The notes below the pieces were generated by a model. The model was not told the origin of the DNA and searched no databases. It saw only the letters and a list, made by a program, of their open reading frames with translations. Made by a program: the position numbers and the translations under genes. A stretch of DNA of 64,000 bases from Acidovorax sp. Leaf160 (lineage in GTDB: Bacteria > Pseudomonadota > Gammaproteobacteria > Burkholderiales > Burkholderiaceae_C): the NCBI RefSeq assembly GCF_001424265.1, contig NZ_LMOV01000025.1, forward strand, positions 5,843-69,842. Reading direction: 5' to 3'. This document shows positions 27,139 to 53,670 of the stretch, piece by piece. Every line of letters begins with the position of its first letter. Within the stretch, counting starts at the first letter, position 1.

Positions 27139-29760
27139 ATGGAAATGCCCGTCTCCCCCGCCCACACCCCCATGATGGCCCAGTACCTGGGCCTGAAGGC
27201 GCAGCACCCCGACACGCTGCTGCTCTACCGCATGGGTGACTTCTACGAGCTGTTCTACGAAGACGCCGAAAAGGCCGCGCGGCTGCTCGACATCACGCTC
27301 ACCCAGCGCGGCCAGTCGGCCGGGCAGCCGGTGGTGATGGCCGGGGTGCCGTTCCATGCGCTGGAGAACTACCTGGGCCGCCTGATCAAGATGGGCGAAT
27401 CGGTCGCCATCTGCGAGCAGGTGGGCGAAGTCGGCGCCACCAAGGGCCCGGTCGAGCGCAAGGTGGTGCGCGTGGTCACGCCCGGCACGCTCACGGACAG
27501 CGAACTGCTCTCCGACAAGGCCGAATCGATGCTGCTGGCGGTGCAGCAGGGTGCGCGGGCGCGCTGCGGCCTGGCCTGGATGTCGGTGACGCAGGGCATC
27601 GTGCACCTGGCCGAGTGCAGCCACGACGAGGTGGGCGCCTGGCTGGCGCGGGTGGCGCCCAGCGAAGTGATCTACAGCGCCGGCACCACCGAACGCTTCG
27701 AGCAGCAGCTGCAGGCGCTGCGCCAGAGCGGGGCCCTCGCCTGCCCCCTGAGCCTGCGGCCGGACTGGCAGTTCGACGCCGCCCTGGGCGAGCGCAAGCT
27801 GCTGGAGCATCTCCAGGCCTCCAGCCTGGCGGCCTGGAATGCCGAGGCGCTCGCCCATGCGCATGCGGCGGCCGCCGCGCTGCTGTCGTATGCCGAGCAC
27901 ACCCAGGGCCACGCCCTGACCCACGTGCAGAGCGTGCGGGTGCAGCAGAGCGACGAACTCATCGCCCTGCCCCTGGCCACGCGGCGCAACCTGGAGCTGG
28001 TGCGCACGCTGCGCGGCGAAGACGCGCCGACGCTCTTTTCGCTGCTGGACACCTGCATGACCGGCATGGGCAGCCGCCTGCTGAAAAGCTGGCTGCTGGA
28101 GCCGCGCCGCGACCGCGCCGACGCCCGCCAGCGCCTGGCTGCCACCGCCGCCCTGCGCGGCACCGGGGCCGGCGCCGGTCCGTGGCAGGTGCTGCGTGCC
28201 GAGCTGCGCGGCGTGAGCGACGTGGAACGCATCACCGCCCGCATCGCGCTGCGCCAGGTGCGTCCGCGCGAGCTGGTGGGGCTCTGCAAGACGCTACAAA
28301 AAGCAGAGCTACTTGCCCAGACTAATCAAGCGCCCGAGCCGTTTTTGACCCAAATCTTCGAGCAGCTGCGGCCGCCGGTGGATTGCGGCACGCTGCTGCG
28401 TACGGCCATCCATGAAGAGCCCGCCGCACTGGTGCGCGACGGCGGCGTGATCGCGGCCGGCTTCGATGCCGAACTGGACGAGCTGCGCGGCATCCAGACG
28501 CATTGCGACGACTTCCTGCTGGACCTGGAAACCCGCGAACGCGCCCGCACCGGCATTCCCAATCTGCGGGTGCAGTTCAACAAGGTGCACGGCTTCTATA
28601 TCGAGGTCACCAGCAGCCATGCGGCCCGCGTGCCGGACGACTACCGCCGCCGCCAGACGCTGAAGAACGCCGAGCGCTTCATCACGCCCGAACTGAAGGC
28701 TTTCGAGGACAAGGCCCTGTCGGCGCAGGAGCGCGGCCTGGCGCGCGAGAAATGGCTCTACGAACAGGTCCTGGACCAGCTGCAGCCGCACGTGCCCGCC
28801 CTCGCCCGCCTGGCCCAGGCGCTGGCCACGCTGGACGTGCTGTGCACCCTGGCCGAACGCTCGCTCACGCTGAACTGGTGCGCCCCGCAGTTCGTCAACG
28901 AACCCTGCATCGACATCGAGGCCGGCCGCCACCCGGTGGTGGAAGCGCGCCTGGCCGAAACCTCGTCCGGCGCCTTCATCCCCAACCACACGCGGCTGAA
29001 CGCCAACACGCGCATGCAGGTCATCACCGGCCCCAACATGGGCGGCAAATCGACCTACATGCGGCAGGTGGCGCTGATCGTGCTGCTGGCCAGCATGGGC
29101 AGCCACGTGCCGGCCACGGCCTGCCGGCTGGGGCCCATCGACGCCATCCACACCCGCATCGGCGCGGCCGACGACCTGGCCAACGCGCAATCGACCTTCA
29201 TGCTGGAGATGACCGAGGCCGCGCAGATCCTGCACGCCGCCACGCCGCACAGCCTGGTGCTGATGGACGAGATCGGCCGCGGCACCAGCACCTTCGACGG
29301 CCTGGCGCTGGCGAGCGGCATCGCCACGCACCTGCACGACCGCACCAAGGCGTTCACGCTCTTCGCGACGCATTACTTCGAGCTGACCGAGCTGTCGGCG
29401 CGCCACCAGCATGCCGTCAACGTGCATGTGGGCGCGACCGAGACGGGCGCATCGATCGCCTTCCTGCACGAGATCCAGCCCGGGCCGGCCAGCCGCAGCT
29501 ACGGCATCCACGTTGCCAAGCTGGCGGGCGTGCCCGGGCCGGTGCTCAACCATGCGCGGCACACGCTGGCCGCGCTGGAAGAGCGGGCCGGCGAAGGCGA
29601 GGCGCAGGTGGACCTGTTCGCTCCGCCACCGGAGGACCCGGGAGCCGGCCTCAGCGCCGTGGAAGCAGCGCTGGACGCCATCCATCCCGACGCGATGAGC
29701 CCGCGCGAGGCGCTGGACGCGCTCTACCAGCTCAAGCGGCTGGCGCAGGGCGCGGGCTGA
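27139..29760 (+). CDS. mutS: DNA mismatch repair protein MutS
   Basis: Recognises mispairs and small loops and starts repair, 873 residues. The N-terminal mismatch-binding domain shows [18 protein letters not shown] with the Phe-x-Glu intercalating motif, followed by the connector, core and clamp regions (VLVRDGG-type, [37 protein letters not shown]). The ATPase carries [13 protein letters not shown] (Walker A, about residue 634), [12 protein letters not shown] (Walker B/D-loop) and [11 protein letters not shown]. Two in-frame Met codons (27139 and 27145) start it; neither has a strong ribosome-binding site. Bases 28293-28350, in the core domain, match the interspersed repeat family of this window without breaking the frame. 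Confidence 0.98.
28293..28350 (+). repeat. Interspersed palindromic repeat, copy inside mutS
   Basis: A 17-base degenerate palindrome GCTACAAAAAGCAGAGC (28293-28309), 19 variable bases, then AGCGCCCGAGCC and GTTTTTGACC. Same layout and spacing as the other copies in the window. AT-richer than the flanking mutS sequence and read in frame as [20 protein letters not shown]. Confidence 0.75.
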
Positions 29761-29785
29761 TCGGGCCGGTGCAGGCAGTTCAAGC

Positions 29786-29840
29786 CCAACAGGCCGCCGG
29801 CGCCCGCTCTGTCAGGGCGCGCAGCTATCGTTTTTGAATC
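29786..29840 (-). repeat. Interspersed palindromic repeat, copy downstream of mutS
   Basis: On the minus strand: 17-mer GATTCAAAAACGATAGC (29840-29824), whose left arm has decayed, then exactly 19 bases, then GGCGCCGGCGGCC followed by TGTTGGGC. It lies between mutS and the Anbu-type protease gene, in the 162-bp gap. Confidence 0.6.
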
Positions 29841-29922
29841 GCTCTTGCGCGCAAGACCCGCCCCCGGCGCCACGGCGGGGCGCGCACTACACTTGCGGCT
29901 TTTGCCCCGGGCCGCCTCCAAC

Positions 29923-30753
29923 ATGACGTATTGCGTCGCCATCAAACTCAACGCCGGACTTGTGTTCCTCTCCGATTCCCGCACCAACGCCGGCCTCGAC
30001 CAGATCAGCTCTTTCCGCAAGATGATGATCTACGAGAAGCAAGGCGACCGCTTCATGGTGCTGCTGTCGGCCGGCAACCTGAGCATCTCGCAGTCGGTGC
30101 GCGAGATCCTGCAGGTCGAGCAGATCGCCAGCCCCGACGAAGACGGCGAACCCATCACCATCTGGAATGCCACCAGCATGTTCGACGTGGCCCGCGTGCT
30201 CGGCTCGGCGGTGCGCCGCGTGCACGAGCGCGACGGCCTGGCGCTCAAGCGCGCGGGCGTGGACTTCAACGTCTCGCTGGTGCTGGGTGGGCAGATCCAG
30301 GGCGAGGGCATGCGCCTGTTCCAGGTCTATTCGGCGGGCAACTTCATCGAGGCGACCTCCGAAACCCCGTATTTCCAGGTGGGCGAATCGAAATACGGCA
30401 AACCGGTGCTCGACCGCGTGCTGACCCCCGAGACCCCGCTCGACGAAGCCGCCAAGTGCGCGCTGGTGTCGATGGACAGCACGCTCAAGTCCAACCTGTC
30501 GGTCGGCCTGCCGCTCGATCTGGTGGTGTATGAGGAAGGCCGCTTTTCCACCGACAAGATCGTCTGCATCGACGAGAACAACCCCTACTTCCGCATGCTG
30601 CACAACAGCTGGGGCCAGAAGCTGCGCGAAGTATTCGACAGCATCGAAGACCCGGAATGGAACGGCGGCGCCACCGAGGTCCCGATCTGCGTCGACCCGA
30701 CCCGCAGCCGGCCGATCCGCAAGATCACCAACCCGCGCGACAAGCTGATCTGA
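29923..30753 (+). CDS. Anbu-type proteasome-like protease
   Basis: Bacterial proteasome-like (Anbu) subunit of 276 residues with an Ntn-hydrolase fold. The start at 29923 gives MTYCVAIKLNAGLVFLSDSRTNAG; removal of Met would expose Thr as the N-terminal nucleophile, as in HslV and proteasome beta subunits, and DSRTNAGLDQISSFRKM follows as in the family. Later blocks KCALVSMDSTLKSNLSVGLPLDL are also typical. Anbu usually sits with an ATP-grasp protein, an alpha-E protein and a transglutaminase, but none of these is adjacent. The longer frame upstream of 29923 runs through the repeat-containing gap and is rejected. Confidence 0.92.
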   Translation: MTYCVAIKLNAGLVFLSDSRTNAGLDQISSFRKMMIYEKQGDRFMVLLSAGNLSISQSVREILQVEQIASPDEDGEPITIWNATSMFDVARVLGSAVRRVHERDGLALKRAGVDFNVSLVLGGQIQGEGMRLFQVYSAGNFIEATSETPYFQVGESKYGKPVLDRVLTPETPLDEAAKCALVSMDSTLKSNLSVGLPLDLVVYEEGRFSTDKIVCIDENNPYFRMLHNSWGQKLREVFDSIEDPEWNGGATEVPICVDPTRSRPIRKITNPRDKLI

Positions 30754-30858
30754 CGCCTGAGCCTGGCGCTTGGGGTGTGCAGCGCCCCGCGCAGGCTCGC
30801 AGCCCCGCTCCCAACTCGCCGCCCCGCCGCCCCGCCGCCCCGCCGACGCCCACCGTCC

Positions 30859-31683
30859 ATGCCACGCATCGTTTTCTCGCACGCCAACAGCTTCCCGGCC
30901 AGCACCTATCGCGTGCTTTTCAGCGAGCTGCGCCGCCGCGGCTACGAGGTCAGCGCGGTGGAGCAGTTCGGCCACGACGAGCGCTACCCCGTCACCAACA
31001 ACTGGCCGAACCTGGTGCAGCAGCTGGCCGACTTCGCCGACGCCGAGCAGCAGCGCAGCGGCGAGCCGGCCTTTCTGGTCGGGCACTCGCTGGGCGGCTT
31101 TCTGAGCGTGATGGCAGCGGCCCGCCACCCGCACCTGGCCCGGGCGGTGCTGCTGCTGGATTCGCCCCTGCTCAGCGGCTGGCGCGCCGGCGCGCTCCAG
31201 GTCGCCAAGCGCACGCAGCTGGTGGGCTCGGTGTCGCCCGGCAAGATCAGCCGGGCCCGGCGCAACAGCTGGGCCACCTCCGACGAGGCGTTCGAGCACT
31301 TCCGTCGCAAGAAGGCCTTCGCCCACTGGGACGAGCGGGTGCTGCGCGACTACGTCACGCATGCACTGCGCGACCATGAGGGCCAGCGGCTGCTCGCATT
31401 CGACCGGGCGGTCGAGACCGCCATCTACAACACCATCCCGCACGACCTGGACCGCCTGCTGCGCAGCCACCCGCTGCACTGCCCGGCGGCGTTCATCGGC
31501 GGGCTGGCGTCGCAGGAAATGCGGCAGGTCGGCATGGCGTTGACCCAGCGCATCACCCAGGGCCGCATCGCGCTGGTGGATGGCAGCCACCTCTTTCCCA
31601 TGGAGCGGCCCATCGTCACGGCGGCCGCCATCGAAGCCGCGCTGCTCAACCTGGCAGCGGTGCAGGACGGCGCGCGGGGCTGA
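30859..31683 (+). CDS. Alpha/beta hydrolase
   Basis: A 274-residue alpha/beta hydrolase. The nucleophile elbow is VGHSLGG (Ser 77), with an oxyanion-type HANSFPASTYRVLF start, and a C-terminal DGSHLFPMERP supplies the likely catalytic His. A helical cap (about residues 110-200) holds RRKKAFAHWDERVLRDYV. The start at 30859 gives MPRIVFSHANSFPA; the frame from 30775 adds only a Pro/Arg-rich stretch. Substrate unknown. It lies 105 bp after the Anbu-type gene in the same direction, so cotranscription is possible. Confidence 0.88.
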   Translation: MPRIVFSHANSFPASTYRVLFSELRRRGYEVSAVEQFGHDERYPVTNNWPNLVQQLADFADAEQQRSGEPAFLVGHSLGGFLSVMAAARHPHLARAVLLLDSPLLSGWRAGALQVAKRTQLVGSVSPGKISRARRNSWATSDEAFEHFRRKKAFAHWDERVLRDYVTHALRDHEGQRLLAFDRAVETAIYNTIPHDLDRLLRSHPLHCPAAFIGGLASQEMRQVGMALTQRITQGRIALVDGSHLFPMERPIVTAAAIEAALLNLAAVQDGARG

Positions 31684-31777
31684 GCCCCCGCAGCCCAGAC
31701 GAACTGACGGCCAGCCGTCTGCGACCGGGCAGGCCCGCGTGGCTCGGATGCGTCAAGCATCTGCTTGCGCATCCTCT

Positions 31778-31800
31778 ACACTGCGCCATCGTTACAGTGT
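31778..31800. promoter_or_regulatory. Putative operator palindrome upstream of DUF2236 gene
   Basis: Inverted repeat ACACTG (31778-31783) / CAGTGT (31795-31800) with an 11-base spacer. The two half-sites are one helical turn apart in the style of TetR-family operators. It precedes the short frame at 31810 and the DUF2236 gene. No TetR-type gene is visible in the window to go with it. Confidence 0.35.
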
Positions 31801-31809
31801 GATACGCCG

Positions 31810-31938
31810 ATGACCGCCTTCGCGACGCCCGCCCACGCCTTCGTGCCGCCCGACCCGGCGCGTCGCCCGCACGGCCTCGGCACAGCCGCCGCGCCAGGTT
31901 CGTCCGGCCGCCGCCACACGCACGAGGAACCGGCATGA
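31810..31938 (+). CDS. Possible 42-codon leader frame
   Basis: An ATG at 31810 opens a frame of 42 codons (MTAFATPAHAFVPPDPARR...) that ends in TGA overlapping the ATG of the DUF2236 gene as ATGA. The overlap is typical of translational coupling. However, no clear ribosome-binding site precedes it, the composition is Ala/Pro/Arg-rich like random high-GC sequence, and no domain is recognisable. It may be the remnant of a longer gene or a chance frame. Confidence 0.25.
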   Translation: MTAFATPAHAFVPPDPARRPHGLGTAAAPGSSGRRHTHEEPA

Positions 31939-33374
31939 CGCGACAGCCTGCCGCCGCCGCCATCCCCGACGCACTGCTGGACGCCCAGCCCTGGCAGGCC
32001 GATCCGCTCGCCGACGACACCATCGCCCGCATCCTTGCGCCGCAGGCCGCCGGCAGCGATGGATCGGGCGAACCCTGGCAGCGCATCGCCTGCGTGAACC
32101 GCCTGTTCGCAAGCTGGACCGACAACGCCACGCTGGCCGGCTGGCGCGCGCCCGAGGGCACGCTGCCGGAGGTCGCCCAGGCGCTGCAGTCGTATCTGCA
32201 GACCGGCCGCGCGCTGCCCGCCTGGGCCGACGCTGAGCGGGTGGAGCGGGCCGAAGCGCTGTTCATGGACCACGGTGCGCTGTCCTGCGTGCTGCTGTTC
32301 TGCTCCAGCCTGCCAGAGTGCTATGTGATTCCCGATCTGGCGAGCGTGCTGCATGTCGCAGGCGAGCTGGAGCACCACACAGAACACCGCATCCGATCCA
32401 CGGCCGCCATGATCTTCCCGGTGATGATGCAGGGCGGCCTGACGCGGCCGGACGGCGCCGGCGTGGCCCAGGTGCTGAAGGTGCGGCTGATCCACGCCAC
32501 CATCCGCCACCTGATCCTGCGCGGCGCCCCCGTGCCGGGCCAGCCTGCGGGCGAGATCGCGCCGCTCGAGCGCCCGGCCGACGCAGGCCTTTACCAGACC
32601 CTCTATGCCAGCGGCTGGAACGTGGGGCGCGACGGACTGCCCTGCAACCAGGCCGAGCTGGCCTACACACTGCTCACCTTCGGCTACGTCTTCCTGCGCA
32701 GCCTGCGCCGGCTGGGGCTGGGGTTCACGCCAGCGGACGAGCAGGCCTACCTGCATGCATGGAACGTGGTCGGCCATGTGCTGGGCATCGACGATTCCCT
32801 GATGGCGCACACCATGGAAGACGCCGCCGATCTGCTGGAGCGCCTGCAGGCCCGAGGCCGCGCCCAGATCACGCAGCCCGACGCCCGACCGGCCCTGGCC
32901 GCCGCATTGATGACGACCATGGAGCAGGCCATTCCGTGGCGCCTGGCACGGCCCTTCCCGCGGCTGATGACGCGCTACCTGTGCGGGCGCAGCACGTCAG
33001 CCGAACTGGCGCTGGACGGGCAGCGTGCGCCCTGGACGTCCTGGCTGCTGTTCTGGACCCTGCTCGGCCTCTGCCGGCTGATCGATACCGTGGCGCGCTG
33101 GATCTGGCCGCAGTTCTCGCTCTCGCGCAGTTTCACGCGCGTGCTGGGCTACCACCTGCTGGTGAAGGTGCTGATGGACCAGACCCGCCCCCTGCAGCTG
33201 CCTGCGCATGTGCTGCATCAGCTGGGCAGGTGCGTCGCAGGCTGGAGCGACGACCCGCGAGCGCCGCGGTGGCTCAATCGCCTCGAAGACCGATTGACGA
33301 CCACCGGCTCCTGGCTGTTCGCTGGCGAGCACGCAGCGCGCACGGCCCCCGTGGCGCCCGGCCCGCTGCGGTAA
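31935..33374 (+). CDS. DUF2236 / MpaB-like oxygenase family protein
   Basis: A 479-residue protein of the DUF2236 family, which includes fungal MpaB and the rubber oxygenase Lcp, both heme enzymes. Matching blocks: EHHTEHRIRSTAAMIFPVM, where Lcp has its Arg/Thr heme-pocket segment; KVRLIHATIRHLIL, the usual R-x3-H-x2-R helix; and AYLHAWNVVGHVLGIDDSLM, the family W-x2-G-x2-LG block. The central domain is helical; residues 370-400 (WLLFWTLLGLCRLIDTVARWIW) are hydrophobic and may be membrane-associated. Whether it binds heme or oxidises anything is inference from the family. No clear ribosome-binding site; it may be coupled to the leader frame. Confidence 0.85.
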   Translation: MTRQPAAAAIPDALLDAQPWQADPLADDTIARILAPQAAGSDGSGEPWQRIACVNRLFASWTDNATLAGWRAPEGTLPEVAQALQSYLQTGRALPAWADAERVERAEALFMDHGALSCVLLFCSSLPECYVIPDLASVLHVAGELEHHTEHRIRSTAAMIFPVMMQGGLTRPDGAGVAQVLKVRLIHATIRHLILRGAPVPGQPAGEIAPLERPADAGLYQTLYASGWNVGRDGLPCNQAELAYTLLTFGYVFLRSLRRLGLGFTPADEQAYLHAWNVVGHVLGIDDSLMAHTMEDAADLLERLQARGRAQITQPDARPALAAALMTTMEQAIPWRLARPFPRLMTRYLCGRSTSAELALDGQRAPWTSWLLFWTLLGLCRLIDTVARWIWPQFSLSRSFTRVLGYHLLVKVLMDQTRPLQLPAHVLHQLGRCVAGWSDDPRAPRWLNRLEDRLTTTGSWLFAGEHAARTAPVAPGPLR

Positions 33375-33487
33375 GCGGCACGACAGCAACTTCTGACACA
33401 CTCCAGGCCGCTCGCTGCCCCCGCCTGACCCGTCAGCCCTGCGCCCGCACCGACGCCGCACCCGCTCCCCTCGCTGACCGTCTCGCC

Positions 33488-35347: not shown

Positions 35348-35416
35348 GCCCCACGCGGCGGGGCACGCGGGCCGCGCCGAGGCAGGCGAACGGCAAGCCG
35401 CGCGCCGGGGGAAGGC

Positions 35417-36241: not shown

Positions 36242-36519
36242 GGAAATCTCTGCGTCAGTTCCAAACCCGGGAATTATGTGCGCTCGCCATGACAGGGCTG
36301 CACGCCGCGGCAGATGTTCAGGCTTTTTTGCCGGGCACCCGAGCGCGCGGGGCGGCCGGGCCACTGGCCCCCCACGCGCCGGGGCGCCCCGGCTGGCGCC
36401 ACCCGGCGGCGATTCGCGCTCGCGCCCCCCCGTTCCGTCGCAACCGCCTGGCCGGCCGGGCCAAGCTGATCGACAGTGCGCCACCGCCCTGCCGTTGCAG
36501 GGCATCGAAGGACGCCGCC

Positions 36520-37266: not shown

Positions 37267-38412
37267 ATGCAGCCCCAGCACCGATCCGAACTCCTGCGTC
37301 ACGGCGTCTTCGTGGTGGCGTGCTCCGTGCTCATCGCGACCGGCCTCGCGCTGGTGGGCCACGGCCCGCTGGACGAAACCCTGGCCTATTCGCTTCCCAT
37401 CGGCGTAGTCAGCTGGCTCAGCATCGACCTGGGGCGCATGTGGTTCTCGCGCCGCCGTGCGATTCCCTGGCCTGGCGGTGGCCGCGGCCTGCAAGGCTGG
37501 CTGCTGGTGGCGGCGGGCTCCGCGTTCGGGTATTGCGTCGGCATGGCGCTGGGCAGCTGGTACAGCGGCCGCCCGCTGCACCTGACCAGCTTCGCCTCCC
37601 CACTCATGCTGACCTCCCCGCTGGTCATCACCGTCCTCGCCAGCGCAGGCTTGTCCTTCTTCTTCTACAGCCAGGGCAAGGCACGCTTTCTCATCGCCAG
37701 CGTGGCGCAGGCCCAGCGGGACGCCGCCGAGGCCCGGCTGGCGCTGCTGCAGTCGCAGCTGGAACCGCACATGCTCTTCAACACCCTGGCGAACCTGCGC
37801 GTGCTGGTGGCGAGCGACCCCCAGCGTGCCCAGGCCATGCTGGACCACCTCATCGACTACCTGCGCGCCACGCTGGTGGCATCGCGCTCGACGGTGCATT
37901 CGCTGGCCGAGGAGTTCGCGCGCCTGAACGATTACCTGGAGTTGATGGCCGTCCGGATGGGCCCCCGGCTGTCGTTCACGCTCGATCTGCCCACGGCGCT
38001 GGAGGCCGTGCCGGTGCCGCCGCTGCTGTTGCAGCCGCTGGTGGAAAACGCCATCCGGCACGGACTGGAGCCGGTGCTGGTGGGTGGCCGCATCGCCGTG
38101 CGGGCCCGTCTGGTCGATGCCACCGCCGAGCTGCCGCCACGTCTGGAGCTGACCGTGGAGGACGACGGCGCCGGCCTGCCGCCCGGCTGGACGCAGCCGG
38201 CCCCCGCCGCGTCGCCCAGCGCCGGCAGCTCCTTCGGTCTGGCACAGGTGCGCGAGCGCCTGGCCACGCTCTACGGCGCGCATGGCGCTATTGAACTAAT
38301 AGCAAACATCGCAGGCGGAACCAGCGCCAAAGCCGTATTTCCCTTGAATTCAGCGGCGGCCCGCCCGCTGCAGGACTTGCCCGCATGCCCACTGAACCAC
38401 CCCGCGCACTGA
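37267..38412 (+). CDS. LytS-like sensor histidine kinase
   Basis: A 381-residue sensor kinase of the LytS/AlgZ (His_kinase) class. Four membrane segments span about residues 11-134. The phosphoacceptor is in LQSQLEPHMLFNTLANL (His 168), and LLLQPLVENAIRHGLEP (N box), VEDDGAGLP and SFGLAQVRERLATLYG form the ATPase. It partly overlaps the LytTR regulator (28 bases), so the two are clearly a pair. The last 40 codons fall on a copy of the interspersed repeat (38287-38343) and read GAIELIANIAGGTSAKAVFPLN; the C-terminus beyond the ATPase core is thus repeat-derived. Confidence 0.92.
   Translation: MQPQHRSELLRHGVFVVACSVLIATGLALVGHGPLDETLAYSLPIGVVSWLSIDLGRMWFSRRRAIPWPGGGRGLQGWLLVAAGSAFGYCVGMALGSWYSGRPLHLTSFASPLMLTSPLVITVLASAGLSFFFYSQGKARFLIASVAQAQRDAAEARLALLQSQLEPHMLFNTLANLRVLVASDPQRAQAMLDHLIDYLRATLVASRSTVHSLAEEFARLNDYLELMAVRMGPRLSFTLDLPTALEAVPVPPLLLQPLVENAIRHGLEPVLVGGRIAVRARLVDATAELPPRLELTVEDDGAGLPPGWTQPAPAASPSAGSSFGLAQVRERLATLYGAHGAIELIANIAGGTSAKAVFPLNSAAARPLQDLPACPLNHPAH
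38287..38343 (+). repeat. Interspersed palindromic repeat, copy at end of LytS-like kinase
   Basis: Near-perfect 17-base palindrome GCTATTGAACTAATAGC (38287-38303), 19 bases, then AGCGCCAAAGCC and GTATTT. Sense orientation to the kinase gene and open in its frame. Its AT-rich core stands out from the surrounding GC-rich sequence. Confidence 0.8.
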
Positions 38413-43993: not shown

Positions 43994-44036
43994 GCGGGGA
44001 AGGTCCAGGCCGGCGAATACATGTCGTCACAAGTGT

Positions 44037-44213: not shown

Positions 44214-47129
44214 TCAGCTCAGCAGTTGGCGCAACACATAGGGCAGGATGCCGCCTGCCCGGTAGTAGTCCACTTCGATGGGCGTGTCGATGCGCAAGGT
44301 GACTACCACTTCCTGGCGGGAGCCATCCGGCCGGTGGATCACCAGCCGGGCATCGCTCTGCGGGGTAAGCGCCGGGTCGGGCAGGACGTCGATCACTTCG
44401 CTGCCCTGCAGGCCCAGCTTCTCCCAGGAGTCGTCGCCCCGGAACTGCAATGGCAGCACGCCCATGCCGACCAGGTTGGAGCGGTGGATGCGTTCGAAAC
44501 TGCGCGCGATCACCGCCTTGATGCCGAGCAGCTGCGTGCCCTTGGCGGCCCAGTCGCGGCTCGAACCCGTGCCGTACTCTTCCCCCGCAAAAATCACGGT
44601 GGGCGTTTCGTGCGCGATGTACTGCATGGCGGCATCGAAGATGAACATCTTGGTGCCTTGCAACGGCCCCTCGTTCTGGAACAGGGTGACTCCGCCCTCC
44701 TCCCGCGAGCCGTCTGCCAGCGGCGGAATCATCAGGTTCTTGATCCGCACGTTGGCGAAGGTGCCCCGCATCATCACGTCGTGATTGCCCCGGCGCGCGC
44801 CGTAGCTGTTGAAGTCCGCTTTCAGCACGCCGTGCTGCAGCAGCCATTGCCCAGCCGGCGATGTGTCCTTGATGGAACCCGCCGGGGAGATGTGGTCGGT
44901 GGTGATCGAGTCGCCAAACAAGGCCATGATGCGCGCACCCTGCACCGATTCAGCAGCTTTTTGGCCGCCAGCGCTTGACTGTCCTGCATCCCCTGCTATT
45001 GGATCAATAGCAAACTGGGCAAAGAACGGTGGCTCGGCGATGTAGGTACTGGCGGGCCAGACATAGGTGTCGCCTTCCACGCCCAGGATGTTGTTCCAGA
45101 GCGCGCCAGGCTCGGTCTTGACCTTGGCGTAATTCGCCTTGAACGCCTTGCCGTTCATGGCGAACTTCATCAGCGCCTGCACCTCGTCGCTCGACGGCCA
45201 GATATCGCCCAGATAGATATCCCGCCCGCCCCGGCCGCGCCCCACGGGCTCGGTCATCAGGTCGCGCAGCACCGTGCCAGCGATGGCATAGGCCACCACC
45301 AGCGGCGGGCTGGCCAGGAAGTTGGCCTTGATGTTCGGGTGGATGCGCGCCTCGAAGTTGCGGTTGCCCGACAGCACGGCCGCACACACCAGGTCGTTGC
45401 CGGTAATGGCCTCGTTCAGCTCGGGAGCCAGGTCGCCCGCGTTGCCGATGCACGTAGTGCATCCGTAGCCCGCCAGGGCGAACCCCAGCTTTTCGAGGTA
45501 GGGCATCAGGCCGGTTTCCGTCAGGTATTCCGTGACGATGCGTGACCCGGGGGCGAGCGACGTCTTGATGTGAGGCTGCACCTTCAAGCCCGCTTCGACG
45601 GCCTTCTTGGCCAACAGGCCCGCGGCCAGCAACACGCTCGGGTTCGACGTGTTGGTGCAACTGGTGATGGCGGCGATCAGCACATCGCCATTGCCGATGG
45701 TCGTGTCGGCGCCTTTTACCGGCACCCGGGCGGTGGCGTCCGAACGCTTCACCGCCAGCTTGGGCTTGTTCTGCTCCATCTCCACCAGGAAACGCGGACC
45801 GCCTTCCGGTGCCGGTTTCTCCTCTGGTGGCCGAGGCCGGGCTTCCTCGCCCCGGCGGTGGATGTGGTGCCGGGTGTGCAACAGCTCTGCAGGCCGGTTG
45901 AAGCCATTCTGGGCAGCAGGCTGCGAGAACAGCGAGGTGAACTGGCTGGCGACCTGGCCCAGCTCGATGCGGTCCTGCGGCCGCTTGGGGCCAGCGAGGC
46001 TGGGGGTGACATCGCCCAGGTCCAGGCGAACGACTTGCGAGTAGTCGATGTCGCCATCCTGGGGCACGCCGAACAGGCCCTGGGCCTTGAAGTAGCCCTC
46101 GAAGGCCTCGATCTCGGCCCGCGTGCGCCCCGTGCCCCTGAAATAGTCGATAGTCTTTTCGTCGACCGGGAAAAAGCCCATCGTCGCGCCATACTCCGGG
46201 GCCATGTTGCCGATGGTGGCGCGATCGGGAAGGGACAGCGTCCTCGTGCCTTCGCCGAAGAATTCGACGAATTTGCCCACTACCTTGTGCCTGCGCAGGA
46301 TTTCCGTGACCGTGAGCACCAGGTCGGTGGCGGTGACACCCTCGCGCAGTCGCCCGGTCAATTCGAAACCGACCACGTCGGGCGTGAGAAAGTACACCGG
46401 CTGGCCCAGCATGGCGGCCTCGGCTTCGATCCCGCCCACACCCCAGGCGACCACACCGATGCCATTGATCATGGTGGTGTGACTGTCGGTGCCGACCAGC
46501 GTATCCGGGTAATAGACACCGCCCCGGCCCTGATGCACGCCCCGCGCGAGATATTCCAGATTAACCTGGTGCACGATGCCGAAACCCGGCGGAACCACGC
46601 CGAAGGTCGCGAAGGCCTGCATGCCCCATTTCATGAATTCGTAACGCTCGCGATTGCGCTGGAACTCGAGCTTCATATTCAGATCGAGGGCTTTCTTCGT
46701 GCCGTAATAGTCCACCATCACCGAATGGTCGACCACCAGATCCACGGGTACCAGCGGCTCGATCTTTTTGGGGTTCTTGCCCAACCGCTGCGCCGCACTG
46801 CGCATGGCGGCCAGATCGGCCAGCAAAGGCACGCCCGTAAAATCCTGCAACACCACCCGGGAAACCACAAAAGGGATTTCCTCGGTGCGTTGTCCATTGG
46901 CCTGCCATTGCGCCAATTGCTGCACGTGCCCCGCAGTCACTTTGCGGCCGTCGCAATTGCGCAGCACCGATTCCAGCACGATGCGAAGAGATACAGGCAA
47001 ACGGGCGACCGACGGAAACTGCTCCGACAAAGCCGGGAGCGAATAAAACATTCCCTGCCGACCCGAAGCCGTTGTAAATGATTGCAAAGTTGCGGGAAAC
47101 GCGTGTTCTGCGGAGGGGCTCGGGTTCAT
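44214..47129 (-). CDS. acnA: Aconitate hydratase A
   Basis: TCA-cycle aconitase of the AcnA/IRP type, 971 residues, longer than the usual 890-910. [4Fe-4S] ligands are seen in [11 protein letters not shown] and [12 protein letters not shown]; other blocks include [39 protein letters not shown] and [13 protein letters not shown]. Two insertions explain the length. A Pro/Glu/Arg-rich linker lies at about residues 410-470. The other insertion, read [18 protein letters not shown], coincides with a copy of the interspersed repeat (44958-45011). The gene is alone on its strand, with a 463-bp leader downstream of the H-NS-like gene. Confidence 0.96.
44958..45011 (-). repeat. Interspersed palindromic repeat, copy inside acnA
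   Basis: Minus strand: palindrome GCTATTGATCCAATAGC (45011-44995), 19 bases, AGCGCTGGCGGCC, then AAAAA. It lies in frame and in the sense direction of acnA, where close relatives of E. coli AcnA have no such residues. Confidence 0.85.
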
Positions 47130-47889: not shown

Positions 47890-48235
47890 GGTGTGGTATC
47901 GGGCACGAATGAAAGGAAGGCCGCATTATAAGAACGTTTTTAAGGATGCTTAAACATCTTTCATAAATCAGCTTGAAAACACACCTGCCATCCGTGCGCC
48001 ACCTACGCAGTCGCCGGACGCAAAAAAAGCGGATGAAGCGCCCGGAGTCTGCGGCATCTCGGGACCTTGCAGCCTGGAAAGAGGAGTCGGCCATTAACTT
48101 CGCCGCCCGGCAGAGGCCGGTTTTCCTCACCGGTCGCCCGAGCATCAGGCCCAGGATGCGTTGGACGCTCCGACATTCGGCGCGCCCGCTCGCTCGCGCA
48201 AAATGGCAGCTTCTCTTCTTCAGAAGACTGATTCC
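47890..48235. other. 346-bp gap between divergent H-NS-like gene and apaH
   Basis: Holds the H-NS-like gene promoter (47925-47953) within an AT-rich stretch of about 60 bases (47920-47980). No gene is supported; a 200-base GC-rich part then leads to apaH, with no obvious apaH promoter. Confidence 0.5.
47925..47953 (-). promoter_or_regulatory. Promoter of the H-NS-like gene
   Basis: On the minus strand a consensus -10 TATAAT (47930-47925) is 17 bases from TTAAGC (47953-47948). An imperfect inverted repeat, AAGGATG/CATCTTT around CTTAAA (about 47942-47961), covers the -35 region. The setting is AT-rich, as expected for autoregulation by an H-NS protein. Confidence 0.7.
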
Positions 48236-49078
48236 ATGGCAATTTACTGTGTAGGCGATGTACAGGGGTGCGATGGCGCTCTGCAAAGACTGGTGGACCG
48301 CATCGGTTTTTCCCCCAGTCGGGACACGCTGTACTTGCTGGGCGACCTGGTGAACCGGGGCCCCGCTTCGGCCGCCGTGCTGCGCCGCTGCGTGCGATGG
48401 GGTGACAGCGCCCGCGCACTGCTCGGCAACCACGACCTGCATCTGCTGGCAGCCGCCCACGGCGCGCGCGCCCCTTCGCGCAGGGATACGCTGGCCGATG
48501 TATTGGAAGCGCCCGACCGGGAAGGCTTGCTGGACTGGCTGCGGCAGCAACCGCTGGCGCGCACACTGGAGCTTGCAGGTGAACCCTTGCTGATGGTGCA
48601 TGCCGGCGTCCTGCCGCAATGGACGCTGCAAGACACGCTCTCCTACGCCAGCGAGGTTCAGTCGGTGCTGCGCGGCCCTCGGCTGCCGGACTTTCTGCAC
48701 AGCATGTACGGAAATACGCCCGATCGATGGAGCGACCACCTCGAAGGCCTCGACCGTATTCGCACGATCGTGAACGCACTCACCCGCCTGCGGTTCTGCA
48801 CGCCGGACGGTGTGATGGATTTCGACAGCACCGAATCAGCGGCCCAGCCACCCGCCGGCCTGGTGCCATGGTTCGAAGCGCCGGGGCGGCGCACCGAGAG
48901 CACGCTGATCGCCTTCGGGCACTGGTCCACCCTGGGTTGGCTCGAACGCCGCCACCTGCTCGGACTGGATACCGGTTGCGTCTGGGGAGGCTGCCTGAGT
49001 GCGGTGCGCTTCGGCGCCACCCTGGCGGAAAGGGAGCACCTGAAGGTGGACTGCGAAGCATCGCAAAAGCCGGGTTGA
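48236..49078 (+). CDS. apaH: Symmetrical bis(5'-nucleosyl)-tetraphosphatase
   Basis: Hydrolyses Ap4A to two ADP and also removes Np4 caps from RNA, 280 residues. Metallophosphatase motifs are complete: GDVQGC near residue 8, GDLVNRGP, GNHDLHLL, and VHAGVLPQW, then FGHWSTLG. The start at 48236 gives MAIYCVGDVQGC; the frame from 48161 has no conserved residues. It stands alone, divergent from the H-NS-like gene and convergent with rhlE. Confidence 0.96.
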   Translation: MAIYCVGDVQGCDGALQRLVDRIGFSPSRDTLYLLGDLVNRGPASAAVLRRCVRWGDSARALLGNHDLHLLAAAHGARAPSRRDTLADVLEAPDREGLLDWLRQQPLARTLELAGEPLLMVHAGVLPQWTLQDTLSYASEVQSVLRGPRLPDFLHSMYGNTPDRWSDHLEGLDRIRTIVNALTRLRFCTPDGVMDFDSTESAAQPPAGLVPWFEAPGRRTESTLIAFGHWSTLGWLERRHLLGLDTGCVWGGCLSAVRFGATLAEREHLKVDCEASQKPG

Positions 49079-49166
49079 GACGGCACCGCCACCCACCTGC
49101 GCTCAGACGGCCACAGCACCCTGCCCGTACCACACCGTTCCACGGGTGCAGGTCAAGGGTGCGGAA

Positions 49167-50651
49167 TCAGCAAGCCTGCTCGGATGCTTCCGGCAGCGAC
49201 GCCGGTGGCGAGGTTTCGGCTGCTCCCGGCACGGGGGCCTTGAACAGTGCCGCCACCTTGCGTCGCGGCTTGATGTTCGCGGAGATACTGCTGCGGGCGG
49301 GTTGGGCCTTGGCGGCGGCCTCCCAGCCTGGAGCGCCCTCATGGGAGGCGGTGGGCTCGTAGGGCTTGTCGAAGAAAGGATCGCGCGGCGCCGCAGATTG
49401 CCGATAGGTGCGCGACTCGCGTCGCTCCCGGCCGCCACCACTGCTGGCGCCTTGCTCTTCCTCGCGCCAGGCGCGACGGCCATCGTTGAACCGGCCGGAG
49501 GGACGCTCCACCTCGAATTCGATCGGCTCGAGTTCGATCTTCTTCTTGATCAGCTTTTCGATGTCGCCCACCAGGCGCGCATCGCTGCTCGACACCAGCG
49601 TGACCGCCAGACCGGAAGCGCCGGCACGGCCCGTGCGGCCGATACGGTGCACGTAGTCTTCCGCGTTGAACGGCACGTCGAAGTTGAACACGGCCGGAAC
49701 GTCCTTGATGTCGAGGCCGCGAGCGGCGACATCGGTGCAGACCAGCAGATCGACTTCGCCCTTCTTGAACGCTTCCAGTGCCTTCAGACGCTCGTCCTGG
49801 CTCTTGTCGCCGTGCAGCGCGGCGGTCTTCAGACCCTCGCGCTCCAGCGAACGCGCCAGCCGGCCGCAGCCCAGTTTGCTGTTCACGAAGATGAAAGCCT
49901 GGCGCACGCCTCGGTCCTTCAGCACCTTGTGGATGGCACGCCGCTTGTCGTCGTCGGACGCCGAATAGAAGCGCTGCTCCACCGTCGAAGCGGTTTCGTT
50001 CGGACGCGCGACTTCGATCGTGATCGGGTCTTGCAGATAGCTGCTGGCCAGACGCTTGATCTCGGGCGAGAACGTTGCCGAAAACAGCAGCGTGGTGCGT
50101 TGCTTGGGCAGGTACGACAGGATGCGCTGGAGATCGGGCAGGAAGCCGATGTCGAGCATGCGGTCGGCTTCGTCAAGCACCACGTACTCGACCTGGTTGA
50201 GCACGGCGTTCTTGGCCTCGATGTGATCGAGCAAGCGGCCGGGCGTGGCCACCAGCACCTCGACGCCTTTTTTCAGCTCCAGCGTCTGGGGCTTCATGTC
50301 CATGCCGCCGAAGACGACCGTGCTGCGCAGCTTGGTGTGCTTGGCGTAGAGCGCGATCTGCTGAGCGACCTGGTCGGCCAGTTCACGGGTCGGCAACAGC
50401 ACCAGGGCGCGCACGGGATGCCGGGCGGGGGACGTCGAGCTGTTCTCGTGCTTCATCAGCCGCTGCAGCAGCGGCAGGGAGAAAGCGGCCGTCTTGCCGG
50501 TGCCGGTCTGGGCGGCACCCATCACGTCCTTGCCGGTCAAAACGACGGGAATGGCCTGCGCCTGGATGGGCGTCATGGACTCGTAGCCCATGTCGGCGAC
50601 GGCGCGGGCCAGCGGCTCGGCCAGCGATAGATTGGAAAAGGAACTTGTCAT
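49167..50651 (-). CDS. rhlE: DEAD-box RNA helicase RhlE
   Basis: ATP-dependent RNA helicase of 494 residues. The Q-motif region, AQTGTGKTAAF (motif I), DEAD in VVLDEADRMLDIGF, SAT, and TDVAARGLDI, HRIGRTGRAG are all visible. The C-terminal 110 residues are a basic, Ser/Arg/Glu-rich tail (REERRESRTYRQSAAPRD and after) that probably binds RNA. AAGG stands six bases before the ATG at 50651. The leader holds a copy of the interspersed repeat, which may supply promoter-like AT-rich sequence. RhlE rather than other DEAD proteins is favoured by the length of the core and tail. Confidence 0.93.
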   Translation of the reverse strand: MTSSFSNLSLAEPLARAVADMGYESMTPIQAQAIPVVLTGKDVMGAAQTGTGKTAAFSLPLLQRLMKHENSSTSPARHPVRALVLLPTRELADQVAQQIALYAKHTKLRSTVVFGGMDMKPQTLELKKGVEVLVATPGRLLDHIEAKNAVLNQVEYVVLDEADRMLDIGFLPDLQRILSYLPKQRTTLLFSATFSPEIKRLASSYLQDPITIEVARPNETASTVEQRFYSASDDDKRRAIHKVLKDRGVRQAFIFVNSKLGCGRLARSLEREGLKTAALHGDKSQDERLKALEAFKKGEVDLLVCTDVAARGLDIKDVPAVFNFDVPFNAEDYVHRIGRTGRAGASGLAVTLVSSSDARLVGDIEKLIKKKIELEPIEFEVERPSGRFNDGRRAWREEEQGASSGGGRERRESRTYRQSAAPRDPFFDKPYEPTASHEGAPGWEAAAKAQPARSSISANIKPRRKVAALFKAPVPGAAETSPPASLPEASEQAC

Positions 50652-50750
50652 TTGAGCCTTCTATTGTCGCACCAGGGAGCGACAAGGCCATTTTTTCGCT
50701 ACGGCGCGGCCTCACCCAGAGCATGGGCGCTCCAGGATCGGTCGCCATTT

Positions 50751-50803
50751 GCTACATTATTAATAGCATCCAGCCCAGCAATGACGGGCGCTCAGCCCCA
50801 AAA
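50751..50803 (+). repeat. Interspersed palindromic repeat, copy in rhlE leader
   Basis: Palindrome GCTACATTATTAATAGC (50751-50767), 19 bases, GGCGCTCAGCCCC, then AAAA. It lies about 100 bases before the rhlE start, in antisense orientation to rhlE, and is the only AT-rich stretch in that leader. Confidence 0.8.
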
Positions 50804-50841
50804 CCTCAAGGCACTCACCCCGTCGCAACGGCCGAGCGAAA

Positions 50842-51717
50842 TCACAACGTTCGGGCAGAGAAGGTGTCGCAGCCCTTCACGCTACCGTTCTGCAGCCCGT
50901 TCTGGAACCAGCGCTGGCGCTGCGCACTGGAGCCGTGCGTGAAGCTGTCGGGCACGACGGCGCCCCCACTGGCCCGCTGCAACGCATCGTCGCCGATCTT
51001 GGCGGCCGCGTTCATGGCCTCCTCCACGTCGCCCTGCTCCAGAATGTGGCGGGCATCCTGGGCATGGTGCGCCCAGACGCCAGCAAAGCAATCGGCCTGC
51101 AGTTCGAGCCGCACGGACAGCTGGTTGTACTCCGTCTGGCTGACCCGGCCCCGCATCTGGTCGACCTTGCCGCTGATGCCGAGCAGGTTCTGCACATGGT
51201 GGCCGACCTCATGGGCTACGACGTAGGCCTGGGCGAAGTCGCCGGGCGCACCGAGCTGGTTCTTGAGCGTTCTGTAGAAACTCAGATCGATGTAGACCTT
51301 CTGGTCTGCGGGGCAGTAGAAAGGCCCCATGGCGGCCTGCCCGGTTCCGCAGGCAGTGGGGGTGCGGCCATCGAACAGCACCAGCCGAGGCTGCGCATAT
51401 TGGCTGCCACCCTTCTTGAAGATGTCGCCCCAGACGTCTTCCGTGTCGGCCAGGACGGTGGACACGAAGCGCGCCATCGTATCGTCAGCTGGCGGGCGCT
51501 GGGCCGGGGCTTGCTGCACCTGCGCCGGCGCGCCGCCACCGCTCAACATACCCAGCAGGGTCAGAGGGTTGATCCCGAAGATCCAGCCGCCCAGCAGCGC
51601 GATGACGATCGTGCCAATGCCGATGCCACGGCCACCAAAGACGGGAAATCCACCCCCGCCCCCCGCCCCGCGGCGGTCCTCGACGTTGTCGGACTCGCGA
51701 TTGCCTTCCCATTTCAT
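50842..51717 (-). CDS. ypfJ: YpfJ-type neutral zinc metallopeptidase
   Basis: A 291-residue protein with one membrane segment (GIGIGTIVIALLGGWIFGI, about residues 31-49) and a zinc metallopeptidase domain carrying HEVGHH (His 169 onward) and a later helix with RLELQADCFAGVWAHHA. A conserved CGTG and CPADQK block sits before it. The start at 51717 has GAGGGAG seven bases upstream; a GTG at 51723 is in frame but too close to that site. Its substrate is unknown. It stands between rhlE and a small unknown gene. Confidence 0.92.
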   Translation of the reverse strand: MKWEGNRESDNVEDRRGAGGGGGFPVFGGRGIGIGTIVIALLGGWIFGINPLTLLGMLSGGGAPAQVQQAPAQRPPADDTMARFVSTVLADTEDVWGDIFKKGGSQYAQPRLVLFDGRTPTACGTGQAAMGPFYCPADQKVYIDLSFYRTLKNQLGAPGDFAQAYVVAHEVGHHVQNLLGISGKVDQMRGRVSQTEYNQLSVRLELQADCFAGVWAHHAQDARHILEQGDVEEAMNAAAKIGDDALQRASGGAVVPDSFTHGSSAQRQRWFQNGLQNGSVKGCDTFSARTL

Positions 51718-51912
51718 GCCCACACTCCCTCGCGCCGGTTCAGGCGCACCATGTACAGGACGCGGATGTTAAGTCCTGCGCCGCCTCATCCCGCGAGGTA
51801 GCTCACTCAGCGCACGCAGCACTGCAGCGGTGCTGCGCCGGCATGCGCGCCGTCCGCCCCTACCGGTGCGCGGACTGCCTGACCTGCGCACTTCACCGCA
51901 TGGCGCACGCGC

Positions 51913-52134
51913 TCACTGCGCCATGTTGGCCGGGTGCAGGTCTACCGTGGAGCTGACCTGCACCGGCTTCACGGCCTGCCGGGCCGCCTGTTCCACCTGG
52001 CCACTGACCACCATGCCGACTGCGACCAATTGAATGGCGATGACGACCGAGCCGATTCCCACTACCCACGGCTTCATGGAAGAGTCGGACACCTCCGTAG
52101 AGCGTTGGGCCGGGGACAGGTGGATCGTAGGCAT
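51913..52134 (-). CDS. Small single-pass membrane protein of unknown function
   Basis: A 73-residue product not recognised. It has a hydrophilic N-terminus, one hydrophobic segment (WVVGIGSVVIAIQLVAVGMVVSG, residues 23-45) and a Gln/Val-rich C-terminus (VEQAARQAVKPVQVSSTV). The ATG is preceded by AGAGGA with seven bases of spacing, a strong ribosome-binding site, so I accept it as real. Alternate frames on the other strand lack this. Confidence 0.6.
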   Translation of the reverse strand: MPTIHLSPAQRSTEVSDSSMKPWVVGIGSVVIAIQLVAVGMVVSGQVEQAARQAVKPVQVSSTVDLHPANMAQ

Positions 52135-52260
52135 CGTTATTCCTCTTTAGTCGTTGATGGCACGAATGCTAAAAGTGCCACTTCGATGGGCTCCGAGGTT
52201 ATTCACGCAGCCACCTGTAGGACTGACTCCAGAGCGCAAACTGCCGCGCGGTCGCACCAT

Positions 52261-52291
52261 AAAAAAAGCCTGCCACAGGCAGTGGCAGGCT
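52261..52291 (-). terminator. Rho-independent terminator
   Basis: Stem AGCCTGCCAC (52267-52276) with GTGGCAGGCT (52282-52291), loop AGGCA, followed on the minus strand by a run of seven U. It terminates the transcript of the 109-residue protein gene upstream, and isolates the 73-residue gene. Confidence 0.88.
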
Positions 52292-52390
52292 TCGATGGCG
52301 GACACCGGGAATGGGATCAGCGGCTGTCAGCGGAACTGGATGATTCGATATGCGGTAATTCCTGGCGGTCCGAACCAGACGCCTCGCCAC

Positions 52391-52720
52391 TCAGTTGCGT
52401 GTTGCACGGGCAAAGGGAGAGCGGCCCGCGAAATAAGGCGCCAACTCTTCCGTCAACGTTTGCAATTCAGCGTCGTCCTGCAGCGCCCAAGCCCGCTCGA
52501 GCTGTTCGACCGCATAGCGACGATCCCCCAGCATCATGGCGGCGCTGACACACTGACCATGCGCTGCCATGCGCAACAGAAACGCATCCAGCGAGTGCGC
52601 AGGCCAGTAGGCCATGCCGCAACGCGCCCAATCGGATGCATTGCTGGCTGATGCCTGGCCGATTGCGTCGGCAGGACCGGGAACACGGGCGGCGGGGGTG
52701 GACGAGTGAAAGGCAAGCAT
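52391..52720 (-). CDS. Hypothetical protein (109 aa)
   Basis: A 109-residue protein not recognised. Ala/Ser-rich start, a helical middle with Cys, Trp and Met, and AVEQLERAWALQDDAELQTLTEELAPYFAGRSPFA near the end. No membrane segment or motif. AAGGA stands seven bases before the ATG, and a strong terminator follows, so it has its own transcription unit. Its function cannot be guessed from the sequence. Confidence 0.65.
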   Translation of the reverse strand: MLAFHSSTPAARVPGPADAIGQASASNASDWARCGMAYWPAHSLDAFLLRMAAHGQCVSAAMMLGDRRYAVEQLERAWALQDDAELQTLTEELAPYFAGRSPFARATRN

Positions 52721-52879
52721 GATGACGTCCTTGGCAGTGGTCAGTTCAGTAAATCTTGAGCAGCAAACGTTTCGCTCAAAGCACCGGCAAATGCTACCCA
52801 GCCGCCCAGGCGCTGACCCGCTGAAAGGGGGGAATACCGTCGTAGGACTTTTCCCCGAGCCACGCCTTGCAAGCTGTCT

Positions 52880-53446
52880 TCAGGCCTTGGGCAGCGTCAC
52901 GCCCACCTGGCCCTGATACTTCCCGCCGCGGTCTTTGTAGCTGACCTCGCAAACCTCGTCACTTTCAAAGAACAGCACCTGCGCACAGCCCTCCCCTGCG
53001 TAAATGCGCGCAGGCAGCGGGGTGGTGTTGCTGAATTCGAGCGTGACATACCCTTCCCACTCCGGCTCGAACGGCGTCACGTTGACGATGATCCCGCAGC
53101 GGGCATAGGTGCTTTTGCCCAGGCAAATGGTGAGCACGTTGCGCGGAATACGGAAGTATTCGACCGTGCGCGCCAGCGCAAAACTATTGGGCGGAATGAT
53201 GCAGCTGTCTCCATGAAAATCGACGAAACTCTTTTCGTCGAAATTCTTCGGGTCCACCACCGTGCTGTGGATATTGGTAAACACCTTGAATTCGGGCGCG
53301 CACCGAATGTCGTACCCATAACTGCTGGTGCCGTAGCTGATGATCTTGCGGCCGTCCTGCTCCCGGATCTGGCCCGGCTCGAACGGCTCGATCATTCCGT
53401 TCTGCTTTGCCATGCGGCGGATCCACTTGTCGCTCTTGATGCTCAT
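52880..53446 (-). CDS. dcd: dCTP deaminase
   Basis: Deaminates dCTP to dUTP for thymidylate synthesis, 188 residues, trimeric. Core blocks [45 protein letters not shown] and [31 protein letters not shown] are typical, with the catalytic Glu in the last. The start at 53446 has AGGAG seven bases upstream; the ORF also opens at 53467 without one. The Gln/Arg in QVLFFESDE fit the family. Confidence 0.97.
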
Positions 53447-53614
53447 TGCGTTACTCCTGTGCTGCATTCTAGGGACGGAGCAGCCCCTGGGTCGGCAAGT
53501 CCGGCGAGCCGGTCACCCACGGCGCAACCGGCAGGAGCCCCCTCAAGGTCGGCGACGATGCGGGACGTGTGCGTGCAGCGACGCAATCACGCCGCCGGGC
53601 AGAACCGCAGCGAC

Positions 53615-53670
53615 CCGTCCGATGCGATAGCAGCCAACCCGCCTGGCAAGAGCGCTATGCACCGTTTCCG
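53615..53670 (+). repeat. Possible decayed copy of the interspersed repeat at the guaD stop
   Basis: ATAGC ends at 53631, exactly 19 bases separate it from AGCGCT (53651-53656), then CACCGTTT follows. The left arm of the palindrome is lost. The stop codon of guaD (TAG on the minus strand, 53657-53655) lies in the AGCGCT box. Only one clear half, so treat as tentative. Confidence 0.35.

Follow-up and report, generated by a model that had tools for sequence, protein, structure and literature searches.

Dispersed 67-bp elements of Comamonadaceae, maintained in place and rewritten in lineage-specific dialects: possible sites of self-DNA recognition

Background

DNA uptake sequences (DUS), in the account given in parts of PMC3630211, are dispersed sites, present also in coding sequences where the reading frame allows it, with a conserved core, clade-specific dialects and some genomes holding two dialects. 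We describe here an element with the same properties in Acidovorax sp. Leaf160 and other Comamonadaceae. Five copies were noticed in a stretch of 64,000 nucleotides of that strain (contig NZ_LMOV01000025.1, positions 5,843 to 69,842), called the window below. Like uptake sequences, the element is maintained in place in coding and non-coding DNA, and in Acidovorax it can be linked, as are uptake sequences elsewhere, to species-specific natural transformation (PMC4212676). According to the sections examined of that work (Davidson et al. 2014, PMC4212676), natural transformation takes place in A. temperans and A. facilis, no tested Acidovorax took up DNA of another Acidovorax species, and uptake by Verminephrobacter requires type IV pili and is sequence-selective; no uptake sequence is named in those sections.

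Other dispersed repeats are also comparable. The element shares with repetitive extragenic palindromes (REP) and REP doublets forming hairpins (REPIN) its hundreds of short palindromic copies, a preference for 3' gene ends and a single-copy gene resembling those of REP-associated tyrosine transposases (RAYT). It departs from them by copies inside genes, a middle segment rewritten in place and the lack of association with the RAYT-like gene. Rickettsia palindromic elements are repeats tolerated in frame in housekeeping proteins, where they are insertions; unlike them, several in-gene copies of our element show no length difference among relatives. The Betaproteobacterial repeat element (BRE), reported in parts of PMC3110155 from Bordetella, Polaromonas, Delftia and Acidovorax, is a dispersed repeat of similar size with some copies wholly in coding sequence. 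Its description differs, although the two could still be the same element: BRE are about 90 bp long, have 69% GC in Bordetella and are often tandem (PMC3110155), whereas the present element has 67 bp and mostly 35-57% GC. In the open-licence PMC literature we found no published description of the element. The stem-loop families of PMC2267715, as presented in part of that paper, and the GTAG/CGTC repeats of PMC3733652 are near misses only, and the palindromic repeats of the Rhodoferax genome, in the relevant part of PMC2755013, are CRISPR.

Results

Anatomy and genomic setting of the element

The source genome (G000) comprises 4.72 Mb on 29 contigs. A model, R1, was built from 16 copies located elsewhere in this genome (alignment A2), with none of the five window copies in its seed. 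It recovered all five at the places and on the strands given by the first-pass annotation of the window (E 1.2e-10 to 0.0087), the best match off these copies having an E of 0.24 in the same 64 kb. Because three of the five scores are weak, the window-only test is marginal for these three copies. The genome-wide search puts the existence of the family beyond question: the best 150 of 6123 first-look candidates were scored and all had E <= 1e-4, so G000 holds at least 150 matches. These results confirm the initial observation and reveal a family of far greater size than first stated. The exact left arm, TTGCTAT-N7-ATAGC, is found 179 times in G000 (two strands summed, a near-perfect palindrome possibly counting on both) and the reversed pattern is never found. 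As 48 of the 100 copies listed below contain this exact pattern, the total would be roughly 300-400 copies by extrapolation, in agreement with the five copies of this 64-kb window. A first search pattern gave no matches above chance because it had a 6-base palindrome gap, the true gap being 7 bases.

Anatomy was examined on a gapless alignment of 100 non-redundant G000 copies, in which the window was represented by its mutS and acnA copies and the other 98 came from different loci. Seventeen of 117 matches were excluded (two duplicates, two of 62 bases, 13 weak or on the opposite strand), and the remaining three window copies fell under the limit of the 117-match search. Conservation begins and ends sharply at positions 1 and 67, and the flanks are nearly unconserved over 40 bases before and 56 bases after. 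The element consists of a palindrome, TTTGCTAT-N7-ATAGC, followed by a middle segment, a GGAGGCC box and an A/T tract, with the approximate consensus TTTGCTATtAATTTaATAGCtacaaGCGCTTgTATATCAAGCGCTGGAGGCCgATTTGaCTtgAAAT. It extends further than first described: a second A-rich box closes the element at position 67. The fixed spacing is real, since 143 of the 150 scored matches are exactly 63 model bases long. Despite this constant length, any pair of copies agrees on average at only about 55-65% of letters in the parts measured. Positions 55-56 read TT in 69 copies, AA in 27 and a mixture in 4, as expected of an A-tract that is read through DNA shape.

The setting of these 100 copies was determined from genes called by a simple codon-usage script, so that the classes are approximate: 60 copies are intergenic, 24 lie across a gene end (a 3' end in 18 cases) and 16 are within genes. 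Copies in tandem gaps point either way equally often (20 vs 20). Divergent gaps hold 1 of the 60 intergenic copies, compared with 55 of the 222 element-free gaps of at least 60 bases at the same loci (p 8e-7). Eleven in-gene copies are sense and five antisense; eight of the sense copies use the single open frame of the consensus, and the other three, including that of mutS, are in another phase, where the consensus has stop codons that these copies lack. Along the chromosome, random placement fits the spacing of the sites and no strand bias is seen (55 and 74 top-scoring sites, relatives G253 and G258), and the even scatter described initially was not retained.

The first-pass annotation had also proposed a constraint on structure rather than on sequence. 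The intervening stretch is in fact partly conserved in sequence, and no covariation between stem partners was detected: on 16 copies, 78.1% of stem cells pair versus 77.8% after shuffling, and in the set of 100 copies columns are coupled most strongly with their neighbours, not with stem partners. No match to Rfam at gathering score was found in the window or in 12 further loci, and the second inverted repeat of the G000 copies is absent from the other sequence variants described below. Since stem partners do not covary and the orientation to genes is balanced, the constraint acts on DNA and not on RNA structure.

Dialects of the middle segment

Twenty-six G000 loci were located in six relatives and 17 of them were fetched (ThiL in four relatives only); mutS and acnA were added, for G000, G252, G253 and G258 only. 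Over these 19 loci the left arm was recognised at 15 in G252 and in G253, 12 in G258, 11 in G255, 7 in G263 and 0 in G257, and in-gene left arms keep their reading frame across relatives. In G258 the left arm is kept, and the middle is like AAACTATTCAATGAATCCGGCGGCATGG where G000 has TGCAAGCGCTTGTATATCAAGCGCTGG; this replacement is visible inside genes such as mutS, acnA and those for the CCA-adding enzyme and a carboxyltransferase. At the 12 loci shared by G000 and G258, middle identity is no higher between orthologous sites (0.34) than between unrelated ones (0.33), and reaches 0.54 among sites of G000 and 0.63 among those of G258. The left arm shows the opposite pattern (0.81 at orthologous sites vs 0.65-0.66), and the right part keeps some locus history (0.56 vs 0.44). 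Given the identity of the left arms, the sites are old and shared and the middle has been rewritten. Judged from these alignments, the rewriting is lineage-wide at orthologous loci while the left arm retains the history of each locus. No such effect is seen between G000 and G253 or G252, which have a common dialect (0.59-0.60 orthologous, 0.51-0.57 within genome). Against G255 the contrast is less distinct, with middle identities of 0.47 between orthologous sites, 0.45 between unrelated sites, and 0.57 and 0.42 among sites of one genome.

A second model, R2, was built without structure from 13 copies of the G258 type (10 from G258, 3 from G260). With the best 150 matches scored, it finds at least 150 in G258 and at least 150 in G260, and 105 in G259, which contributed no seed sequence and is therefore an independent check. 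Matches number 0-1 in G000, G252, G253 and G263, and there are none in six other congeners. R1 and R2 counts are thus reciprocal across 17 congeners. Four genomes (G251, G254, G255, G265) have 15-22 R2 matches together with 142-146 R1 matches, and G255 has an intermediate middle at 5 of 11 loci, like ATATGCCCTAG..GAATATGCGCT or ..ATTGCGCT. On account of these mixed counts and intermediate middles the group looks transitional, as expected of a dialect shift. Outside this set, genome G295 of genus g151 has 187 exact left-arm matches and only 2 R1 matches. A third middle, TGCTTAGGCAATAAATACGCCGGCTA, follows 30 of 32 left arms in stretches from G295 and G496, with at least 13 of 26 letters matching a consensus that was derived from these same copies.

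At one intergenic locus (ig_L153; L153, L339-L344) two arrangements exist: G000 and G252 have the middle on one side of the palindrome, G253, G255 and G258 have it on the opposite side, and it appears as if flipped from one to the other. This locus was included in the comparison of middle identities and excluded from the comparison of informative positions below.

Conservation, gain and decay of sites

Informative positions were defined on G000 copies and then compared between orthologous copies of other genomes; the left arm was left out because it had served to find the copies. Between G253 and G252, 16 of 99 informative positions differ versus 85 of 165 uninformative ones (11 loci, p 5e-9), and in intergenic copies alone 7 of 45 versus 40 of 75 (5 loci, p 4e-5). 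This definition, and the choice of loci with good G000 copies, favour conservation in G000 itself; the comparison of G253 with G252 is free of this bias. In mutS, 63% of the third positions in the left arm are A/T over 10 genomes, whereas 119 other windows of the gene have a median of 5.7% and reach 24% at most, and synonymous differences at this site amount to 8/58 (14%) versus 24% in the median window. An excess of A/T at third positions (57%) exists at the acnA site too.

The first-pass annotation had suggested an element of the miniature inverted-repeat transposable element (MITE) or REP type. This does not agree with orthologous copies that stay put, with conserved informative positions and a middle that changes lineage-wide without moving. 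Insertion does occur: filled and empty orthologous sites are present at the UvrA locus, where 108 nt separate the anchors in G000 and 45 nt in G255 and G257 (also 45 in G258, by hand count), so that a site can arrive as a 63-nt insertion. The lengths of MutS, the carboxyltransferase and an outer-membrane factor do not differ between the relatives compared. Both routes, insertion and replacement, seem to exist. No end-to-end inverted repeat was seen by eye at the borders of the 100 copies.

Decay is visible in two genomes. In G263 some in-gene sites (e.g. SrkA, L291) have turned G+C-rich with little protein change, and its close relative G252 stays A/T-rich. G257 has no R1 or R2 match, and its CCA-adding enzyme and a FAD protein are read as keeping apparent protein traces of former sites. 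Loss of a reader would produce such decay. The R1 count of G263 (73) is about half that of its relatives, and this genome may be losing the system now.

Distribution among genomes

The suggestion of similar elements in other Comamonadaceae was borne out, with matches in many genomes and genera. In the family sample of 250 genomes and 141 genera, R1 matches (E <= 1e-6; at most 21 candidates scored per genome, with stricter filters) occur in 82 genomes and 53 genera. For the exact left arm the figures are 104 genomes and 67 genera, with up to 187 matches per genome, counts of 1-2 being possibly due to chance; the reversed arm never exceeds 2 per genome. A strict 49-base pattern of the G000 dialect retrieved 39 stretches, from records named Acidovorax, Ramlibacter or Giesbergeria or from metagenome bins named only Burkholderiales, Proteobacteria or Gammaproteobacteria. 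In the order sample, R1 matches were found in 5 of 250 genomes, of which 4, including G000, belong to the same family. The fifth, G175:C46:1589-1651 (L062), is the sole match outside the family in that sample; the assembly is 89% complete with 6% contamination and the match may be on a stray contig.

Among the 17 congeners the distribution is on/off: 140-150 R1 matches in seven (best 150 scored per genome), the intermediate G263, then 8 in G260, 4 in G259, 4 in G258, 1 in G264 and none in five. Mobile DNA was searched by BLAST with one consensus, and 3 of 72,556 plasmid records and 0 of 50,697 phage records matched. The three plasmids (NZ_CP049911.1, NZ_CP101744.1, NC_019312.1), one each from Diaphorobacter, Comamonas and Delftia, each hold a single near-consensus copy; two of them are classed as non-mobilizable and one as conjugative.

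Discussion

A dispersed site which is kept, rewritten in step and sometimes lost across a family is strong evidence for a sequence-specific reader. That the element is a selected DNA site is in our opinion very probable. It would be a recognition site in DNA, spread over the whole genome, rather than an RNA or primarily a mobile element, with three modules in a constant layout of about 67 bp: a palindrome whose halves stand 7 bp apart, a middle that differs between lineages, and GGAGGCC with the A/T tract. We infer a trans-acting protein or complex that reads it. Sites may be gained through insertion or local mutation and maintained by selection or biased recombination; when the specificity of the reader changes the sites would follow, the middle being rewritten in place at many loci as a dialect, and when the reader is lost they would decay. 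The most likely reader would be the type IV pilus DNA-uptake system, the element marking self DNA in the manner of the DNA uptake sequences of Neisseriaceae and Pasteurellaceae. We put forward this role in uptake as our leading proposal, a tentative one, and the complete explanation, a protein-read dialect site whose reader is the uptake system, can be offered with the same reserve. Slightly more guarded still is the full formulation as a self-DNA code, i.e. a composite 67-bp site with at least three dialects, kept by a bias of pilus uptake in 53 to 67 of the 141 Comamonadaceae genera sampled.

In-place conservation, concerted rewriting, reciprocal R1 and R2 counts, the third dialect and the clade with mixed counts all fit this explanation, as do the balanced orientation, the A-tract accepted either way, the avoidance of divergent gaps and the rarity on mobile DNA. 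Natural, species-specific and pilus-linked transformation in Acidovorax and Verminephrobacter, as reported in the sections cited of PMC4212676, fits as well. The dialect found in A. temperans DSM 7270 is that of G000 (L201, L207, L225, L234).

Several points weigh on the other side. The element has three modules, spans 67 bp and occurs in a few hundred copies, unlike DUS and uptake signal sequences (USS), which have 9-12 bp and thousands of copies. Unlike DUS it has no known receptor, and none was found or successfully sought here. Synonymous change at the acnA site is not reduced (34% vs 37%), the clean 63-nt insertion of UvrA is not obtainable by point mutation, and the G255 dialect is weakly defined (middle identity within genome 0.40-0.47). 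The rarity on phages and plasmids rests on the consensus of one dialect. Finally, A. defluvii carries the element (L220) and showed no transformation in the part of PMC4212676 concerned, which may also be a matter of conditions.

If the reader is the uptake machinery, the element may be the signal so far missing from the account of species-specific transformation in Acidovorax, and a self-DNA code would explain the species barrier reported there. To our knowledge, self-DNA uptake codes are established in two families only; a role in uptake would mean that such codes have more than two origins and that their length can far exceed what has been assumed.

An alternative reader is a chromosome-organising or regulatory protein, binding as a dimer on the palindrome with a second module on the middle, whose specificity has drifted and whose sites followed. 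All the in-place evidence fits equally well, as do the palindrome with its fixed 7-bp gap, the A-tract, the random orientation and the near confinement of the element to chromosomes as far as tested. Placement at random without strand bias, showing neither domain spacing nor polarity, speaks against segregation-type sites, and complete loss in close relatives would be surprising for a housekeeping architect protein. We hold this reading to be possible but rather unlikely. Were it true, it would provide a new genome-wide binding system with natural losses for comparison, and under either reader the copies within genes offer an uncommon look at how proteins are shaped to accommodate a DNA signal.

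Somewhat less likely again is a REP/REPIN-like element copied by a single-copy RAYT-type transposase, the element sequence tracking the enzyme. A RAYT-like gene (PF01797) is present once per genome in all 17 congeners and scores 75.7 bits against NCBIfam REP_Tyr_transpos, just below the cut-off of 80. A copy of the element lies upstream of it in 9 of the 17 (R1, E <= 0.03; L236-L252) and, by eye, a left arm in G263; the preference for positions downstream of genes and the UvrA insertion point the same way. G000 has no copy beside its own gene, however, and the gene was rejected as the obvious partner and retained as a rival only: found in 237 of 250 family genomes (79 of 82 R1-positive, 158 of 168 R1-negative), it is near-universal with or without the element and hence not associated with it. 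Moreover, the middle changes at orthologous places with the sites unmoved, 16 of 100 copies are inside genes, and the GTAG/CGTC tag of REP is not conserved, no more than 15 of 100 copies having CTAC/GTAG at a single fixed position and 1 of 100 having CGTC. Since these tag features fail, as do the length and copy number of uptake sequences, the element is placed in no known family. In G258 and G260, a near-consensus copy of the second dialect is located just upstream of the RAYT-like gene.

Neutrally evolving remnants of an ancient MITE family, with a rate of decay that varies between lineages, would account for diverged copies, for some sites being insertions and for the decay in G263 and G257; this is very improbable, given the almost complete absence of length change in 150 copies and the far better conservation of informative positions at orthologous sites, and decay is unable to yield another shared spelling of the middle. 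A structured RNA (terminator, leader or small RNA) held by base pairing, which the inverted repeats of the G000 dialect and the preference for gene 3' ends might evoke, is the least credible reading in view of the absent covariation, the balanced orientation to transcription, the lack of Rfam matches in the window and 12 loci, and a second inverted repeat not kept in other dialects.

Copies in the window and carrier genes

The window copies and their host genes are listed in Table 1. The mutS copy aligns without indels in the 10 relatives compared, and the kinase copy is found at the same place with similar length in both aligned relatives (L118, L121). The acnA copy occupies the same place in several congeners and is shortened or G+C-rich in others. 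After mutS, a left arm or weak copy is visible in several relatives.

Table 1. Element copies and host genes in the 64-kb window
Feature	Position	Strand	Remarks
Copy 1, inside mutS	28290..28352	+	R1 29.9 bits, E 1.7e-8; sense, phase 2; consensus stop codons replaced
Copy 2, intergenic, downstream of mutS	29781..29845	-	R1 14.3 bits, E 0.0071
Copy 3, 3' part of putative histidine kinase gene	38284..38345	+	R1 16.7 bits, E 0.00097
Copy 4, inside acnA, sense with gene	44952..45014	-	R1 35.8 bits, E 1.2e-10
Copy 5, putative rhlE leader	50748..50808	+	R1 14.1 bits, E 0.0087
mutS, host of copy 1	27139..29760	+	open reading frame; MutS identity read from translation, no profile search
acnA, host of copy 4	44214..47129	-	open reading frame; aconitase identity read from translation, no profile search

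Proteins carrying the element in G000, named from their sequences with no profile search, include MutS, UvrA, aconitase, ThiL, TrmJ, the CCA-adding enzyme, CysN, a carboxyltransferase and PBP1C. At L144:3871-3933 the copy starts one codon past the called start of a CysN-like gene and would encode the N-terminus of the protein. In the CCA-adding enzyme (L193, L279-L284), the left arm coincides with the stretch TIN.IA after RRD, which we take to be a conserved motif of this enzyme; relatives free of the element have the same residues written in G+C-rich codons.

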